Shown piece by piece: positions 32,903 to 58,050 of a DNA stretch of 64,000 nucleotides. A program made the position numbers and the translations under genes. The stretch lies in assembly GCA_030388825.1 (NCBI GenBank), contig CP128835.1, forward strand, positions 1,250,501-1,314,500, in the 5' to 3' direction. The notes beneath the pieces are model-generated. The model did no database searches, was not told the origin of the DNA, and worked only from the letters and a program-made list of their open reading frames with translations. Source of the stretch: Rossellomorea sp. AcN35-11. Lineage in GTDB: Bacteria > Bacillota > Bacilli > Bacillales > Bacillaceae_B. Within the stretch, counting starts at the first letter, position 1; each line of letters starts with the position of its first letter.

Positions 32903-32932
32903 TTGGTTGTGAGTGGGAGGGATGGGGTGTAA

Positions 32933-32970
32933 TGTACCAGGTACAGGGGGCACGGATTGTACCTGGTACA
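32933..32970. repeat. Double palindrome: inverted TGTACCAGGTACA pair
   Basis: TGTACCAGGTACA (32933-32945) and TGTACCTGGTACA (32958-32970) are exact inverted copies, and each arm is itself palindromic around its centre base. The 12-base spacer is GGGGCACGGATT. It lies between convergent genes. I recall related motifs as common in Bacillaceae intergenic DNA. Confidence 0.75.
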
Positions 32971-33002
32971 ACACAACACCCACCCCACCCAAAAAACCCC
33001 TC

Positions 33003-33028
33003 AAAAAAAACCTCCCCAATCACTGAGG
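33003..33028 (-). terminator. Weak terminator of the flippase gene
   Basis: Read on the minus strand, CCTC pairs with GAGG, followed by eight T. The stem is short and overlaps the stop codon. Confidence 0.45.
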
Positions 33029-41328: not shown

Positions 41329-41658
41329 GATTGATCCTGAGAACGATATATTAATCCTCGTTTATACTAATTGAACCTGAGAACGGTATATTAATCCTCG
41401 TTTATACTAATTGATCCTTAGAACGATATATTAATCCTCGTTTATACTAATTGATCCTGAGAACGATATATTAATCCTCGTTTATACTAATTGAACCTGA
41501 GAACGGTATATTAATCCTCGTTTATATTAATTGATCCTGAGAACGATATATTAATCCTCGTTTATACTAATTGAACCTCAGAACGATTTATTAATCCTCA
41601 GATATACTAATTGAACCTGAGAACGATTTATTAATCCTCATTTTTAATAATTAATCCT
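41329..41658. repeat. 20-bp-phased array of AATYRATCCT cores (17 copies)
   Basis: Cores of the form (N)ATTRATCCT or AATTGAACCT begin at 41329 and every 20 bp to 41649, without a slip. Alternate units carry different 10-bp spacers, so a 40-bp super-period also shows (eight copies). The core is the reverse complement of that in the arrays at 44875 and 51775. No ORF runs through it. The remaining spacer, 41659-41890, holds no gene that I can support. Confidence 0.95.
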
Positions 41659-44823: not shown

Positions 44824-44874
44824 TTCTTTATTTCTCAGGGTGATGGAAGGACGGATAAAGAAAATTCGACATGG

Positions 44875-44964
44875 AGGATCAATTAATTGGATCGGGGATT
44901 AATTACTGTGATGGAGGATTAAAAAAGCCCTTAAAGGATCGAAAATCATGAATCAGGATCGATT
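44875..44964. repeat. 20-bp-phased array of AGGATYRATT cores (5 copies)
   Basis: Cores start at 44875, 44895, 44915, 44935 and 44955 (AGGATCAATT, GGGATTAATT, AGGATTAAAA, AGGATCGAAA, AGGATCGATT). The preceding GAAAATTCGACAYGG (44860-44874) also precedes each block at 51.8-52.5 kb, so this is a single diverged copy of that block. It lies between convergent genes. The rest of 44965-45216 has no gene that I can support. Confidence 0.92.
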
Positions 44965-45216
44965 CCCGGCAGAAACGGTTCAATTATTGTGCGAACGGCC
45001 TTCCTGTCCGCAGATTTCACCCTCCAATCGGTCTGCAACCAGACTGAACAGCACATTCCCAACCCAAAATGGACAAACAAAAAGAAAAACTGGTGAAAAA
45101 TGATCGTATATGGTTAACCTCACAACCAAAGGCACGAATTCCCTATCCACATCCTCCACAAGCCTAAAAAGGCACGATTCACAGTATGATATGACAACAG
45201 CACCCCAACAAAACCA

Positions 45217-49794: not shown

Positions 49795-49890
49795 TCGATT
49801 TCCAGTAAAAATTGTCATGCCCTGACTTTATATGTAACGTAAAAAATGTTAAAATTTTATTACAATTACGTAAACGGGGGTATAAACTAT

Positions 49891-51702
49891 ATGAATCTAG
49901 TAAACAAGCTAAAAGAAGGACTGCTGTCCGTTTGGCAGGATAAACTCTTGCTCATCTCTGCCATCGGCCTGTCGATTAAAGTAGTCCTGTTTTATTTATT
50001 TTTAGGAAAAGGCCTGTTCGAAGTGAAGAGTTTATTTGTGACCCTTCCAGGCAGCATTTTGATGTTATTCTCATTTGTCTTTTTATTTAAGACGTGGTCC
50101 AGGAAAACGGCCGTCATCGGACTGAATGTCACAGCCACGTTCCTCATGCTTTCGCAGCTGTGGTATATCCGTTACTTCGGGACACCGTTATCGTTCTTTG
50201 CCCTCCTGCAGACGTCCAATCTGTCAGGTCTCGGACCGAGCATCATGGAACTGGTCCACGGGCTGGATGTCCTCTATGTGGTTGATATCGTCATCCTGTT
50301 GATACTGGCCAGAAAGAAATCGTTCTCGATCCCGAAAGTGCAATGGAAAACGTTTATCATTGTCTTCCTGGCCGGTTTCAGCATCCTTGCCGTGAAGCCA
50401 TTGAAGAATCACTATGTGGACGGGACACCTTACGCACAGATCTTTAAGATCTATGACCGCTATGACTACATTTTGAAATTCAACCCGCTTCAATACAGCG
50501 TGCTGGATATGTACCTGTTTTATCAAAACAATCGCTATATCGACCTGAATGACGAAGAGGAAGCCCTCGTCACAGATTGGTTTGAAAAGAAAGACGAATT
50601 CAGGGAAAACCGTCTGTATCTGAATAACAAGTACAAAGGAATCGGGGAAGGCAAAAACCTGATCATCGTGCAATTCGAATCCCTTGAAAACTGGGTGCTG
50701 AATCAACAGGTGAACGGGAAAGAAGTGACCCCTAACCTGAACAAGCTGTTGAAGAACAGCATCTATGCGTCCAACTTCTATCCCCAAACAAAAGGGGGAA
50801 GAAGCTCCGATGCTGAGTTTGTAGTCAATACATCCCTACTTCCTGTAGCGGAAGGCAGCACCTTCTTCCGTTATCCGACGAATGAGTACACGACTCTGCC
50901 CGGCTTATTGAAGGAAAAAGGCTACTCCACCTTTGCCTTCCATGGGGATGAAGGAACGTATTGGAACAGAAGAGAAGCCTACCCCCATATGGATTTTGAT
51001 GAATACATTGCCATTGAAGAGTTCGAAGAAGGAGAAGAGATCGGCATGGGTCTGAGTGATGAAGAGTTCTTCCATCAATCAGTCGACTTCCTCGCTGACA
51101 AGGACCAGCCTCACTACAGCTATCTCATTACGCTGACGAGCCATACGCCGTTTGTGATGCCTGAACAATACAGAGGCCTTGAATTCGAAGCCCAATACAG
51201 CAACACATCCGCTGCTCATTACCTGCAGTCTATCCACTACACGGATATGGCGGTGGGCAAGCTCCTGGAAGACCTTGAAGCAAATGATATGCTCGATGAC
51301 ACGATGATTGCCATCTTCGGTGATCACGCTGCTTTCGAGAACAGCTACAAAGATCAGATGATGAAAGAAAATCCAAAGGTAGAAGGGATCGACGAAGAAG
51401 GCAGGGTGCCATTTATTCTCTACCATCCCGGGATGGAACCGATGGAGCTGGATAAAGCCTACGGTCACGTAGACGTATTCCCTACCCTTGCCTATATGAT
51501 GGGCATCGACGATAAGGATTATGATGACGTGATCATGGGACGAAACATGCTCACATCCGATAACAGCTTTGCTGTCATACCCCTTCAGAATACGATCCAA
51601 TCCGACCGTGAACTGTCTGAAGAACAGAAAGAGTTCGAGCTGAGAGCCCAGCAGGTATCGGATTTGATCATCAGAAGCAATTATTTTAAGAAAAACGAAT
51701 AA
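49891..51702 (+). CDS. LTA synthase (LtaS)-family sulfatase-like phosphotransferase
   Basis: I chose ATG 49891, with CGGGGG 10 bases upstream; an in-frame ATG at 49846 has no RBS. The 603-residue protein has five N-terminal membrane segments (about 25-45, 50-70, 76-95, 110-130, 155-172) and an extracellular sulfatase-like domain from ~220: VQFESLENWV (metal Glu), YPQTKGGRSSDAEF, FHGDEGTYWNR and IFGDHAAF. In LtaS the catalytic nucleophile is Thr in GKTSDxEF; here the aligned position is Ser (GRSSDAEF). The family polymerises glycerol phosphate from phosphatidylglycerol or primes such polymers. It is monocistronic. Confidence 0.9.
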   Translation: MNLVNKLKEGLLSVWQDKLLLISAIGLSIKVVLFYLFLGKGLFEVKSLFVTLPGSILMLFSFVFLFKTWSRKTAVIGLNVTATFLMLSQLWYIRYFGTPLSFFALLQTSNLSGLGPSIMELVHGLDVLYVVDIVILLILARKKSFSIPKVQWKTFIIVFLAGFSILAVKPLKNHYVDGTPYAQIFKIYDRYDYILKFNPLQYSVLDMYLFYQNNRYIDLNDEEEALVTDWFEKKDEFRENRLYLNNKYKGIGEGKNLIIVQFESLENWVLNQQVNGKEVTPNLNKLLKNSIYASNFYPQTKGGRSSDAEFVVNTSLLPVAEGSTFFRYPTNEYTTLPGLLKEKGYSTFAFHGDEGTYWNRREAYPHMDFDEYIAIEEFEEGEEIGMGLSDEEFFHQSVDFLADKDQPHYSYLITLTSHTPFVMPEQYRGLEFEAQYSNTSAAHYLQSIHYTDMAVGKLLEDLEANDMLDDTMIAIFGDHAAFENSYKDQMMKENPKVEGIDEEGRVPFILYHPGMEPMELDKAYGHVDVFPTLAYMMGIDDKDYDDVIMGRNMLTSDNSFAVIPLQNTIQSDRELSEEQKEFELRAQQVSDLIIRSNYFKKNE

Positions 51703-51744: not shown

Positions 51745-51774
51745 TTGATGGCATTAGTTTATCTTGGAGTGGCG

Positions 51775-52567
51775 AGGATCATGCATGATGGTCCGTTATC
51801 AAAAACAATCCAGCTGTTCGTTATTGATGATTGTCGAAGAGACTTGGTGTTTAAAGAAAATTCGACACGGAAGATCAATTCTTTGGATTTAGGATTAATA
51901 AATCAGATTCGGGATTGAAAAAGTTCTATCAGGATCAATTTTTTCCCATCAAGATCGATTATTGCAGATTAGGATCATGGATGTGGACCCGATATCGTGA
52001 ACAATCCGCATGTTCGTTCTCGCTGCTTGTTGAAGAGACTTGGTATATAAAGAAAATTCGACACGGAGGATCGATTCTTTCGGTTTAGGATTAATTAATC
52101 AGATTCCGGATTGAAAAAGTTCTATCCGGATCAATTTTTTCCGGTCAGGATCGATTATGGCAGATGAGGATCATGCATGTTAGTCCATATTAAGAACGAT
52201 CCAGATGTTCGTTCTTGATGCTTGTTGAAGTGACTTGGTATTTAAGGAAAATTCGACACGGAGGATCAATTCTTTGGATTTAGGATTAAAAAATTGGATT
52301 CCGGATTGAAAAAGTTCTAACCAGATTAATTTTCGCCCACCAGGATCGATTATTGCAGATGAGGATCATGCATGTTAGCCCGATATCAATAACAATCCAG
52401 CTGTTCGTTCTTGATTCTTATCGAAGAGACTTGGTATGTAAAGAAAATTCGACACGGAGGATCAATTCTTTCGGTTTAGGATTAATTAATCAAATTCCGG
52501 ATTGAAAAAGTTCTAATCGGATCAATTTTTTCCGATCAGGATCGATTATTGCTGAAGAGGATCAAAT
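51775..52567. repeat. Higher-order array: four ~196-bp blocks, each with six AGGATYRATT cores at 20-bp steps
   Basis: Blocks of cores start at 51871, 52067, 52262 and 52458; in each, six cores are exactly 20 bp apart (for example 52067, 52087, 52107, 52127, 52147, 52167). A lone core at 51775 sits 96 bp before the first block, as expected for the end of a lost earlier block. Linkers of 95-96 bp are well conserved and end in GAAAATTCGACACGG. No ORF or promoter is apparent. It fills most of the 1-kb gap between convergent ltaS-like and tagO genes. Confidence 0.95.
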
Positions 52568-52650: not shown

Positions 52651-52686
52651 AAAAAGAAAACCTTGGATATCCATCCAAGGTTTTCT
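52651..52686 (-). terminator. Terminator of tagO
   Basis: AGAAAACCTTGGAT pairs with ATCCAAGGTTTTCT, loop ATCC; read on the minus strand a T run follows. Confidence 0.9.
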
Positions 52687-52726: not shown

Positions 52727-53788
52727 TTATCTTTCGCGCAGTTTCTTCATTGTGTTGATCAACGGCTTGTGCTGGCCGATCAATCCAACGACTTCTGCCG
52801 TCAGCTGGATGATGATGACCAGTACGGCGGAGAAAAGAATGGCTCCCCAAAGCGTTGATCGGGTGAAAAGAATCGCACACAGTCCGAAGAATGCTCCGAT
52901 CGCATAAATGATCAGGACGGTCTCTTTGTGAGAGAAGCCCATTGCCAATAAGCGATGGTGTAAATGGGATTTATCCGGTGCAGATATCTTCTGTTTGTTC
53001 AGGATACGTCGGATGATGGCGAAGAACGTATCGAAAATCGGTATAGCCAGGATGATAATTGGAACAACTAAACTGAAGATCGTCACACTCTTGAACAATC
53101 CAAGAAGCGAGATGATCGAGATACAATAGCCCAGGAACAGTGCTCCTGTGTCTCCCATGAAAATCTTTGCGGGATTGAAGTTAAAGAACAGGAAGCCGAT
53201 GGTTCCGCCGATCAGGATGACGGTCAGGGCGACGACCATGTACTGACCATTCAGAGCGGCAAGGGCCATGATGGATGTCATGGCGATGACGGATACTCCG
53301 CCTGCAAGCCCGTCCAATCCATCAATCAGGTTGATGGCATTGGTGATCCCGACGATCCACAGGATACCGAACACATAACTGAAATTCCCTAAATATATAC
53401 GTTCTGCCACGAAAGGCAGTGTGATAAAGTCAATTTTAAAATCGGCAAACACGACGATGCAGGCTGCCAGGATTTGTCCAATAAGCTTGGCTTTTGGTGA
53501 CAGGGTAAAGCGATCATCTAGGATCCCGACGATCAGGATGATTCCTCCCCCGAGAATGACCGGCCATAGCGGTAAGATCAAATCATTCAGGTACAATAGG
53601 CCTGCTGATGCACCGATGACAATCGATAATCCACCGATACGGGGCATCAAGCCCTTATGGACCTTACGAAAATCCGGTTTATCGACAAAGCCAAATCGTT
53701 TGGCGAATTTGATTACGAATGGAGTCACTGCTACAGAAACAACTAAAGAAATAGCAAAAGCAATTACAAAATCAATGAGAGAGTACAT
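52727..53788 (-). CDS. tagO: Undecaprenyl-phosphate GlcNAc-1-phosphate transferase TagO/WecA
   Basis: ATG 53788 follows AGAGGTG; upstream in-frame codons lack an RBS. The 353-residue polytopic enzyme (about 10-11 membrane segments) has the MraY/WecA motifs: MPRIGGLSIV, VGILDDRF, NLIDGLDGLAGG, MGDTGALFLGY and the HLHHRLLAMG cytoplasmic loop. It starts teichoic- and teichuronic-type polymers by placing GlcNAc-1-P on undecaprenyl phosphate. In B. subtilis it also lies next to yvyE and degSU. Confidence 0.95.
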   Translation of the reverse strand: MYSLIDFVIAFAISLVVSVAVTPFVIKFAKRFGFVDKPDFRKVHKGLMPRIGGLSIVIGASAGLLYLNDLILPLWPVILGGGIILIVGILDDRFTLSPKAKLIGQILAACIVVFADFKIDFITLPFVAERIYLGNFSYVFGILWIVGITNAINLIDGLDGLAGGVSVIAMTSIMALAALNGQYMVVALTVILIGGTIGFLFFNFNPAKIFMGDTGALFLGYCISIISLLGLFKSVTIFSLVVPIIILAIPIFDTFFAIIRRILNKQKISAPDKSHLHHRLLAMGFSHKETVLIIYAIGAFFGLCAILFTRSTLWGAILFSAVLVIIIQLTAEVVGLIGQHKPLINTMKKLRER

Positions 53789-53826
53789 TCGTTCACCTCT
53801 TTTTCTTCTATGGCACTCCAATTGTA

Positions 53827-53854
53827 AGAATACCACATATTTAATGTTGTGCAA
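53827..53854 (-). promoter_or_regulatory. Candidate tagO promoter
   Basis: On the minus strand: TTGCAC, 16-bp spacer, extended -10 TGGTATTCT, about 40 bp before the start codon. The rest of 53855-54142 holds only a small hairpin (TTTCACC/GGTGAAA, 54021-54040) and no gene that I can support. Confidence 0.45.
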
Positions 53855-57219: not shown

Positions 57220-57251
57220 AACGGCCCTTCTGGTGAAGGGCCGTTTTTTGT
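57220..57251 (+). terminator. Terminator after degU
   Basis: AACGGCCCTTC pairs with GAAGGGCCGTT, loop TGGT, then TTTT. Confidence 0.92.
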
Positions 57252-57327
57252 GTGTGAGTCGCTTGTTTTGTCTGAGAAGGTGGGCACAACTTGGTGGACG
57301 TTCTCATTCCCCACACAAGGCGACACC

Positions 57328-58050
57328 CTAATGCTTTCTCCGGGCGAAATCAACAAACCGGAACATATCGAGGCGGTGCCGGGATTCGGTGTATTCGAAC
57401 AGGGTGGCGTCTTTCAGGTGCACATAATTCTTTACGACGACGACATGGTCGTAGTCATGTAAATCAAGGTATTTCCTGTCCTCATCGGTGCATTCTTCCA
57501 CGACGATTTCTTTTTTGGCGAAATCGATGGGAAGGTGCAGGTCGCCTTCTAGGTACTCGTAGATGGAGTTCTCGCATATTTCTTTCGTGAGAAGAGGTAC
57601 CTGTCCTTTAAGGAAATAAGACTTGTCGAGGATGATTCGCTCCCCGCCAATCCGGCGCGAGCGGACCACTTCCCATACTTCAGAATCGGCGGATGTCTCG
57701 AGGACAGATCCCAGCTGATGGCCGGCACCGATCAAGCCGAATTCATGAACGGACGTTTCAATCTCATCCCGGCCCATGGAAGTCTGCAGCTCTTTAAAGC
57801 TCACCAGTCCTGAGACGGGAAAGCTCATCCGGGATACATCCAATACGAGGGATCCTTTGCCCCGCAGTTTCTGGATCAGCCCTCTTTGAGCGAGCAATGT
57901 AAGCGCTTTGCGAATTGTCTCACGTGAAGTCTTGTACATCACAGAGAGCTCGTTTTCCGATGGCAGGATGGAGTTCGCTGTATAGGTGCCGTTTTGTATT
58001 TTTTTAGATAGATCTTCAAATATTTGTTGGTATTTATTGCTTCTCGTCAT
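57328..58050 (-). CDS. treR: Trehalose operon repressor TreR (GntR family)
   Basis: A 240-residue GntR/HutC protein. The N-terminal winged helix (about 5-70) has ILPSENELSVMYKTSRETIRKAL; the C-terminal UTRA effector domain (about 90-235) would sense trehalose-6-phosphate. Length and sequence match TreR. It lies 1.4 kb downstream of treA on the same strand, separated from it by a lipoprotein gene on the other strand and a small gene. TTGTATATACAA operators occur at 61430, 63056 and 63088. Confidence 0.92.
   Translation of the reverse strand: MTRSNKYQQIFEDLSKKIQNGTYTANSILPSENELSVMYKTSRETIRKALTLLAQRGLIQKLRGKGSLVLDVSRMSFPVSGLVSFKELQTSMGRDEIETSVHEFGLIGAGHQLGSVLETSADSEVWEVVRSRRIGGERIILDKSYFLKGQVPLLTKEICENSIYEYLEGDLHLPIDFAKKEIVVEECTDEDRKYLDLHDYDHVVVVKNYVHLKDATLFEYTESRHRLDMFRFVDFARRKH

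Follow-up and report, generated by a model that had tools for sequence, protein, structure and literature searches.

Intergenic arrays of phased cores in Rossellomorea: a dispersed element family with species-typical words and candidate protein docking sites

The parC site of plasmid pSK41 consists of 20-bp direct repeats that are bound cooperatively by ParR, with repeat words and specificity that vary between families (PMC9426499, in its excerpted text). On chromosomes, the RefZ RBMs are sites placed relative to oriC and linked to sporulation via Spo0A and sigma-H (excerpt of PMC6657595), and the ram sites of RacA are described as centromere-like, dense near the origin, used at sporulation and present elsewhere on the chromosome too (excerpt of PMC6593407). 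Among dispersed repeats, MITEs carry terminal inverted repeats of 15-30 bp and fold (excerpt of PMC3733652). The array considered here lies in the window, by which we mean the whole stretch of 64,000 nucleotides of Rossellomorea sp. AcN35-11 DNA that was analysed, and had been noticed in a sequence-only reading as a phased array that might bind protein or serve in segregation. This array does not stand alone but belongs to a dispersed family of intergenic elements in Rossellomorea, of which no description was found in the open-licence literature.

The window array and its relatives in the source genome

All 24 core positions were read exactly where they had been placed (51871+20n, 52067+20n, 52262+20n and 52458+20n, n=0-5), and the four blocks, 195-196 bp apart with six cores each at 20-bp steps, were matched by TRF (51774-52564, period 196, 4.0 copies, 84% matches). 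The word (A/C)GGATYRATT given to the cores holds in general, but several of them deviate, namely AAGATCAATT at 51871, GGGATTGAAA at 51911 and AGGATCATGG at 51971. The linkers that had been noted between the blocks are more than intervals, each terminating in a leader, AAAGAAAATTCGACA (one mismatch in block 3), whose start lies 18 bp ahead of the first core. The duplicated unit consists of the sixth core, the linker, the leader and cores 1-5, and there is no need to see in the lone core at 51775 the trace of a lost fifth block, as had been suggested, for it is the sixth-core position that opens this unit. The 196-bp block layer itself, which had been taken for a second level of the design, is a local tandem duplication, and the general element design is without it. 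The position of the array between ltaS-like and tagO-like genes in convergent orientation was borne out, and the array is flanked by two terminator-like repeats, one found by repeat search and the other by eye (Table 1). The tagO-like protein (52727-53854) is 89-100% identical in eight genomes and 51-58% identical in the other members of the genus in which it was found, a split that suggests a possibly replaced cell-wall locus.

Table 1. Positions of the family members and neighbouring features in the window
Feature	Position	Strand	Basis
Type-A phased element, four tandem copies, period 195-196 bp	51774..52564	+	TRF, repeat search, sequence
Lone core, the sixth-core position opening the first duplicated unit	51775..51784	+	
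Leader of block 1, AAAGAAAATTCGACA, containing the Spo0A-box word TTCGACA	51853..51867	+	sequence; word from the excerpt of PMC10782996
Block 1, six cores, 20-bp steps	51871..51980	+	
Leader of block 2	52049..52063	+	
Block 2, six cores	52067..52176	+	
Leader of block 3, one mismatch	52244..52258	+	
Block 3, six cores	52262..52371	+	
Leader of block 4	52440..52454	+	
Block 4, six cores	52458..52567	+	
LtaS-like gene (name from the sequence-only reading), Pfam Sulfatase, upstream of the array	49846..51702	+	
tagO-like gene (name from the sequence-only reading), convergent to the gene upstream of the array	52727..53854	-	
Perfect 14-bp inverted repeat, terminator-like, between the array and the tagO-like gene	52655..52686	none	repeat search
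One complete type-A element with leader, five cores, sixth-core region and tail region	44856..45059	+	nhmmer
Leaderless 17-core array, 40-bp higher-order repeat, GGATTAATA alternating with GGWTCAATT	41329..41657	-	

The whole-genome scan that had been proposed as a check was made in the source genome (G000; contigs C1 of 4.19 Mb and C2 of 0.63 Mb), where a two-core pattern at 20-bp spacing, with up to two mismatches, gave 107 matches against 0 in the backward control. A three-core pattern, again with up to two mismatches, gave 85 against 0, and all 85 lie on C1 between 9,588 and 2,138,301. In total the genome has 25 arrays at 18 places, and the window holds three family sites, i.e., two beyond the array at 51774-52567, the 17-core one being apparently an expanded relative of the type-A element. 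In its full form the element is about 210 bp long: a leader, TAAAGAAAATTCGACA, whose Spo0A-box word is perfect, is followed by five or six cores in steps of 20 or 21 bp and then by a tail. The consensus of 24 source-genome copies, TAAAGAAAATTCGACAcgg, has five cores at 20 bp and a sixth at 20 or 21 bp, followed on its 3' side by cgcgaAgg and then by a tail whose last letters are TCCAGCTa; the tail is prolonged as GACAATCTAAAG in several copies and is missing from the tandem copies at the ltaS-tagO place (place 1302). Of 23 source-genome arrays that were found by their cores alone, 20 have exact TTCGACA where the leader is expected. With a simple ORF caller, none of the 25 arrays is spanned by an ORF, and the 18 places divide into 11 codirectional, 4 convergent and 3 divergent, so that convergent gene ends, expected earlier as the setting of such arrays, are not the rule; 13 of the 18 come after a codirectional gene.

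Core words, pitch and leader across the genus

Counts were made in 36 genomes, all of one genus, with three-core patterns for the types A (GGATYRAT), B (GCAYGAWW) and C (GGCRCAAT). Type A occurs in 10 of them, led by the source genome (85 matches), G024 (68), G035 (56) and G029 (51); type B occurs in 25, led by G008 (90), G032 (60), G031 (46) and G026 (34), some low B counts (G002, G009 and G010) being C-like sequence; and type C occurs in five (50 in G002, 40 in G009 and 1 in each of three others). The backward controls of all three patterns gave 0, save for one A match in G009. The types are not completely exclusive among genomes, as G005, G007 and G004 are mixed (A/B matches 11/10, 9/5 and 10/3) and B matches also occur in the A-rich genomes G035 (8 vs 56 A), G029 (6 vs 51) and G000 (2 vs 85), while a fourth word, like GGCNCGTAWWT, is present in G002 and G009. 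The leader is found even in genomes without A matches, and the 20-bp arrays downstream of it there use other words. Patchiness, as a reading of the lack of type A in 26 of the 36 genomes, was rejected, since comparison of the tagO locus revealed other core types. Elements from five genomes (G000, G007, G019, G029 and G032) were typed by majority as 43 A and 20 B; the former contain 216 A cores and 0 B, the latter 103 B cores and 0 A. This set of 63 includes one of two tandem copies in G029, and its arrays outside the source genome were found via the leader (up to one mismatch, and two at one site), with 13 of the 15 leader matches in G032 examined. Each species, or each place in mixed genomes, has its typical core word, whereas leader and pitch are constant. 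Aligned on the leader, the first cores read GGATCAATTAT in A, GGCACGATTAT in B and GGCGCAATTA in C, the last one base earlier, and they appear to represent a single scaffold in which a block of some four bases has changed. In type-C arrays of G002 and G009, ...GATTCC and ...GAAAGT spacers often take turns, which gives a 40-bp super-period similar to that of the window array at 41329-41657.

For the comparison of places between genomes, 59 loci were grouped into 39 clusters, an approximate grouping in which one cluster brings together two kinase genes that are 24% identical and another unites places solely through following rRNA operons. Different words were found at three places where the flanking proteins match on both sides: at ltaS-tagO, G000 and G029 have A and both G019 and G032 have B; at place 1295, which is window 44856-45059, the A word is that of G000 and G029 and the B word that of G032; and at place 1321 G000 has A and G032 has B. 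A fourth place, 33, matches on one flank (A in G000, B in G019). Tail similarity was ranked against 844 non-orthologous A-B comparisons, and five of the 16 orthologous ones exceed the 96th percentile (99.5, 99.4, 98.9, 97.6 and 96.9; 1302 via G029, 1295 via G029, and 1321); of the other 11, one reaches 87 and ten stay at or below 64, eight of these ten being the tail-less source-genome copies of place 1302. As the tails are outstanding at three places and the cores differ throughout, the scaffold there looks partly inherited, and the occurrence of A and B words at the same places speaks for docking sites of a protein whose specificity changed, rather than for a neutral minisatellite.

The claims that core phase never slips and that every core faces the same side of the DNA survive in a weaker form. 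Among the 63 elements the phase is tight without being absolute: the step is 20 bp in 158 and 21 bp in 35 of 226 type-A spacings (193 together), and 20 bp in 74 and 21 bp in 21 of 100 type-B spacings (95 together). The common face would be approximate, with a drift of about 34 degrees per 20-bp step at 10.5 bp per turn. A lag test that took no account of the core word gave a best lag of 19-21 bp, at z of at least 3.5, in 41 of 60 leader sites, and some of the 19 without such a lag at z 3.5 bear one to three recognisable cores. The offset of the first core from the leader, which is set by construction in the source genome, is 19 in 18 of 20 type-A elements and 20 in all 20 type-B elements outside it. 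In the 43 A and 20 B elements, respectively, the information per base is 1.21 and 1.00 bits in cores, 0.57 and 0.54 in spacers, and 1.66 and 1.78 in the leader, the last pair being partly circular as the leader was used for finding elements outside the source genome; in G000 alone the values are 1.53 for the leader, 1.35 for cores and 0.61 for spacers. Against a same-species strain (8 of the 25 arrays, with places 1302 and 1292 left out), substitutions amount to 8/144 in the leader, 14/440 in cores, 27/440 in spacers, 37/806 in tails and 176/4380 in flanks, and indel events to 0, 0, 1, 4 and 8. In these eight arrays no within-species constraint is significant (p 0.054 for cores against spacers, 0.44 for cores against flanks and 0.39 for the leader against flanks), and slower change of the cores within species is suggestive at most.

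TTCGACA/TGTCGAA is given as the 0A-box word in the excerpt of PMC10782996; PMC12090719 yielded no such words. The leader, which holds this word in perfect form, is a candidate Spo0A site. Its 15-mer also starts 251-254 bp upstream of a gene that we take to be abrB in G007 (one mismatch), G019 and G032. These copies (L271, L281 and L286, with one mismatch in L286) are without an array and stand near other TGTCGAA words. Upstream of a glmU-like gene in G019 and G032 (L267, L277) the leader is again without an array and is followed by GC-rich unrelated sequence, which recurs behind other array-less leader copies. A leader search across 397 genomes of the order found it in multiple copies in a few other genera, and copies also at 734 and 962 kb. 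In G038, G084, G130 and G346 it often precedes GGTGCCTG-type palindromes, with the first 16 bp in common (L361-L387). No convincing 20-bp array was seen behind the leader in other genera (30 loci read; 65 matches in six genomes), the best case, L386, having a lag of 20 at z 2.4 and no visible cores. The leader may therefore derive from a repeat family.

Gain, loss and position on the chromosome

Occupation of a place varies between species. Downstream of a gene that we take to be dnaI, the source genome has an array and G019 and G032 have only about 55-58 bp between matching flanks; G007 has another repeat at this site. In G029 (L390) the same site holds a different phased array, of about seven copies of the 21-bp unit GGATTTCCGAAAGAAACGGCC. 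Elements are present in G029 at the place of window 32912-33004 and in G032 at the place of 57250-57330, where the window has none. Window 32912-33004 contains GTACCAGGTAC-type palindromes, and G029 has two tandem elements there, 381 bp apart. In the empty-site comparisons the intergenic DNA differs beyond the element or keeps remnants, and no clean junction was seen. A supposed empty site in G029 for the elements of place 1321 was rejected, being a deletion remnant with the leader and two cores. Across the genome collection the A-type three-core pattern was found in 59 stretches, and in a search with an element profile all named matches above 50 bits were R. aquimaris or Bacillus sp. RO3. Bacillus sp. 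NTK074B reached 37.6 bits against up to 37.2 in unrelated phyla, and such scattered matches are taken as chance. In viral contigs the A-type pattern gave 0 matches and the B-type pattern 9 single ones, and blastn of one type-A element (window 44855-45065) against plasmids and phages gave no match.

The gene dnaA lies at 1,011 kb in the source genome and was also located in four other single-contig genomes. Mapping relative to the origin and terminus, which had likewise been proposed, placed all array sites of G000 within 1,126 kb of dnaA (n=18), and the farthest leader-borne array lies at 1,268 kb in G029 (n=18), 1,198 kb in G032 (n=11), 1,252 kb in G007 (n=6) and 1,289 kb in G019 (n=6), in genomes whose half-chromosomes measure 2,094-2,317 kb. 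Under uniform placement, with the limit taken from the data, the probabilities are 2.7e-5 for G000, 3.6e-5 for G029, 1.8e-3 for G032 and 0.05 and 0.06 for the other two, values that are post hoc and non-independent, the places being partly common to several genomes. The arrays spread across the origin half, their density is not highest beside dnaA, and better survival of old elements in a conserved origin half may be the cause of this placement. The terminus half does contain leader copies without arrays, at 2,975 kb in G000 and as three copies in G029 and G019. The direction from leader to cores runs from origin to terminus in 46 of 59 cases, a bias for which gene orientation alone could account. 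Four type-B elements lie directly downstream of the 5S gene of rRNA operons (L273, L283, L285 and L309).

Docking arrays, rival explanations and the nearest known systems

The best explanation, to which we give a little less than an even chance, is a chromosomal family of intergenic docking arrays for a putative sequence-specific protein that would co-evolve with its sites. It draws on the two-turn pitch, the set offset of the leader, the intergenic placement in the origin half, the lack of an RNA fold and the species-specific words, and confidence in it is reduced by the within-species rate test, which was not significant. The cooperative DNA-binding or segregation array of the sequence-only reading thus finds partial support, in pitch, sites, words and lack of fold, but not in its convergent rule or in core constraint. 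In the proposed mechanism, the protein would bind the cores cooperatively, and a change in its recognition would make all cores of a genome change together. The Spo0A box of the leader, found also upstream of abrB, might tie loading or release to Spo0A and the onset of sporulation, and many loaded arrays might hold the origin half of the chromosome in place or organise it. We infer from this a possible role in chromosome organisation at sporulation; that the arrays organise the chromosome at all seems doubtful to us, and a distributed centromere-like system, with dozens of origin-flanking arrays, one fast-evolving protein, gating by Spo0A and genome-wide rewriting of the code, would be an unlikely outcome as well. 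More than 100 short sites per genome, keeping layout and places while the word changes jointly, would point to a partner that acts in trans and whose code evolves. To our knowledge, chromosomal binding systems of similar breadth (parS, RBMs, Noc sites) retain their sequence. Discovery of the partner would yield a naturally occurring set of DNA words paired with their proteins, and could reveal an unrecognised layer of origin-half organisation in spore formers.

The main rival is a mobile or dispersed repeat, because the leader is common with palindromic repeats of other Bacillaceae and the places vary between species. The family would then be a non-autonomous MITE- or REP-like repeat, with leader and tail as its ends, the types as subfamilies arising via different transposases, and the cores as transposase-binding or passive internal repeats. 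We consider this rather unlikely, albeit a serious contender, as it would accommodate elements present at a place in one species and absent in another, some 25 copies with tandem clusters, the leader in common with the GGTGCCTG-type palindromic repeats of other genera, the other repeats downstream of the presumed dnaI in G029 and G007, and the outstanding tail similarity in just 5 of the 16 orthologous A-B comparisons; a change between A and B by replacement of the whole element is possible. It fits less well with a consensus in which leader and tail (24 source-genome copies) are not inverted repeats, with three places where the type differs between two species although the flanks and partly the tails are common, and with an A pattern that gave 0 matches in viral contigs and an A element unmatched in plasmids and phages. 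The 13 of 18 places after a codirectional gene, the four B elements behind 5S genes, and a leader plus six units of about 140 bp at two-turn pitch would also suit a topology or 3'-end element of the BIME kind, in which gyrase or a nucleoid protein such as HBsu is drawn to phased, bendable DNA. We judge it improbable, for it leaves the rewritten core unexplained, gyrase and HBsu-like proteins not being known to us to recognise so specific a word, and three of the places lie between divergent genes.

Slippage and tandem duplication would fit the 196-bp blocks of the window, the tandem copies 381 bp apart in G029 and the 17-core satellite, and the cores show no significant slowdown within species (the core/spacer difference in eight arrays). 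As an account of the whole family, a neutral minisatellite maintained by these processes is nevertheless very improbable: homologous elements are dispersed, each with its leader at a fixed distance, the spacing shows no free drift, spacers carry 0.54-0.57 bits against 1.0-1.2 in cores although the step holds at 20-21 bp, and the arrays keep to the origin half. Least probable of all, and hardly to be expected, is a non-coding RNA starting from the leader, for example a GGA-rich CsrA sponge. The cores of type A do contain AGGAU, which presumably resembles CsrA sites, but B cores (GCAYGA) are without this motif and the window array sits between two terminator-like repeats. RNAalifold found no consensus pair in 43 A and 20 B arrays on either strand with tails excluded, a weak test, and Rfam at E 0.1 gave no match for six loci.

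Against the docking arrays as we propose them, the described systems compare as follows. ParR/parC type II centromeres (pSK41, C. perfringens ParMRC) are alike in their direct repeats at a pitch of about 20 bp; they adjoin parM on plasmids, whereas the Rossellomorea arrays are scattered across half a chromosome and have a leader and tail. Among the flanking proteins scanned with Pfam (20 of 36, four of them unmatched at 1e-5), neither ParM or ParR nor a shared theme was found. The RefZ RBMs likewise represent chromosomal sites with a position relative to the origin, but in the excerpted description they consist of five motifs that are nearly palindromes, two on each arm and one close to oriC, conserved across Bacillus, unlike the 25 direct-repeat arrays at 18 places found here. 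The ram sites differ in also lying elsewhere on the chromosome, and no 20-bp array is reported for them in the excerpt. With bcr1, other MITEs and REP the family has in common that short repeats are dispersed and often intergenic, and its leader is common with a Bacillaceae palindromic repeat; unlike MITEs such as bcr1, in the excerpted account of them, the Rossellomorea element showed no 15-30 bp terminal inverted repeats or fold in the tests made, and unlike REP/RAYT its arrays have no 20-40 bp palindrome or consensus fold, the palindrome following the leader in other genera. Although none of them is matched in full by the family, the nearest mechanisms by analogy, as far as the excerpted sources describe them, would appear to be ParR/parC, RefZ-RBM and RacA-ram.
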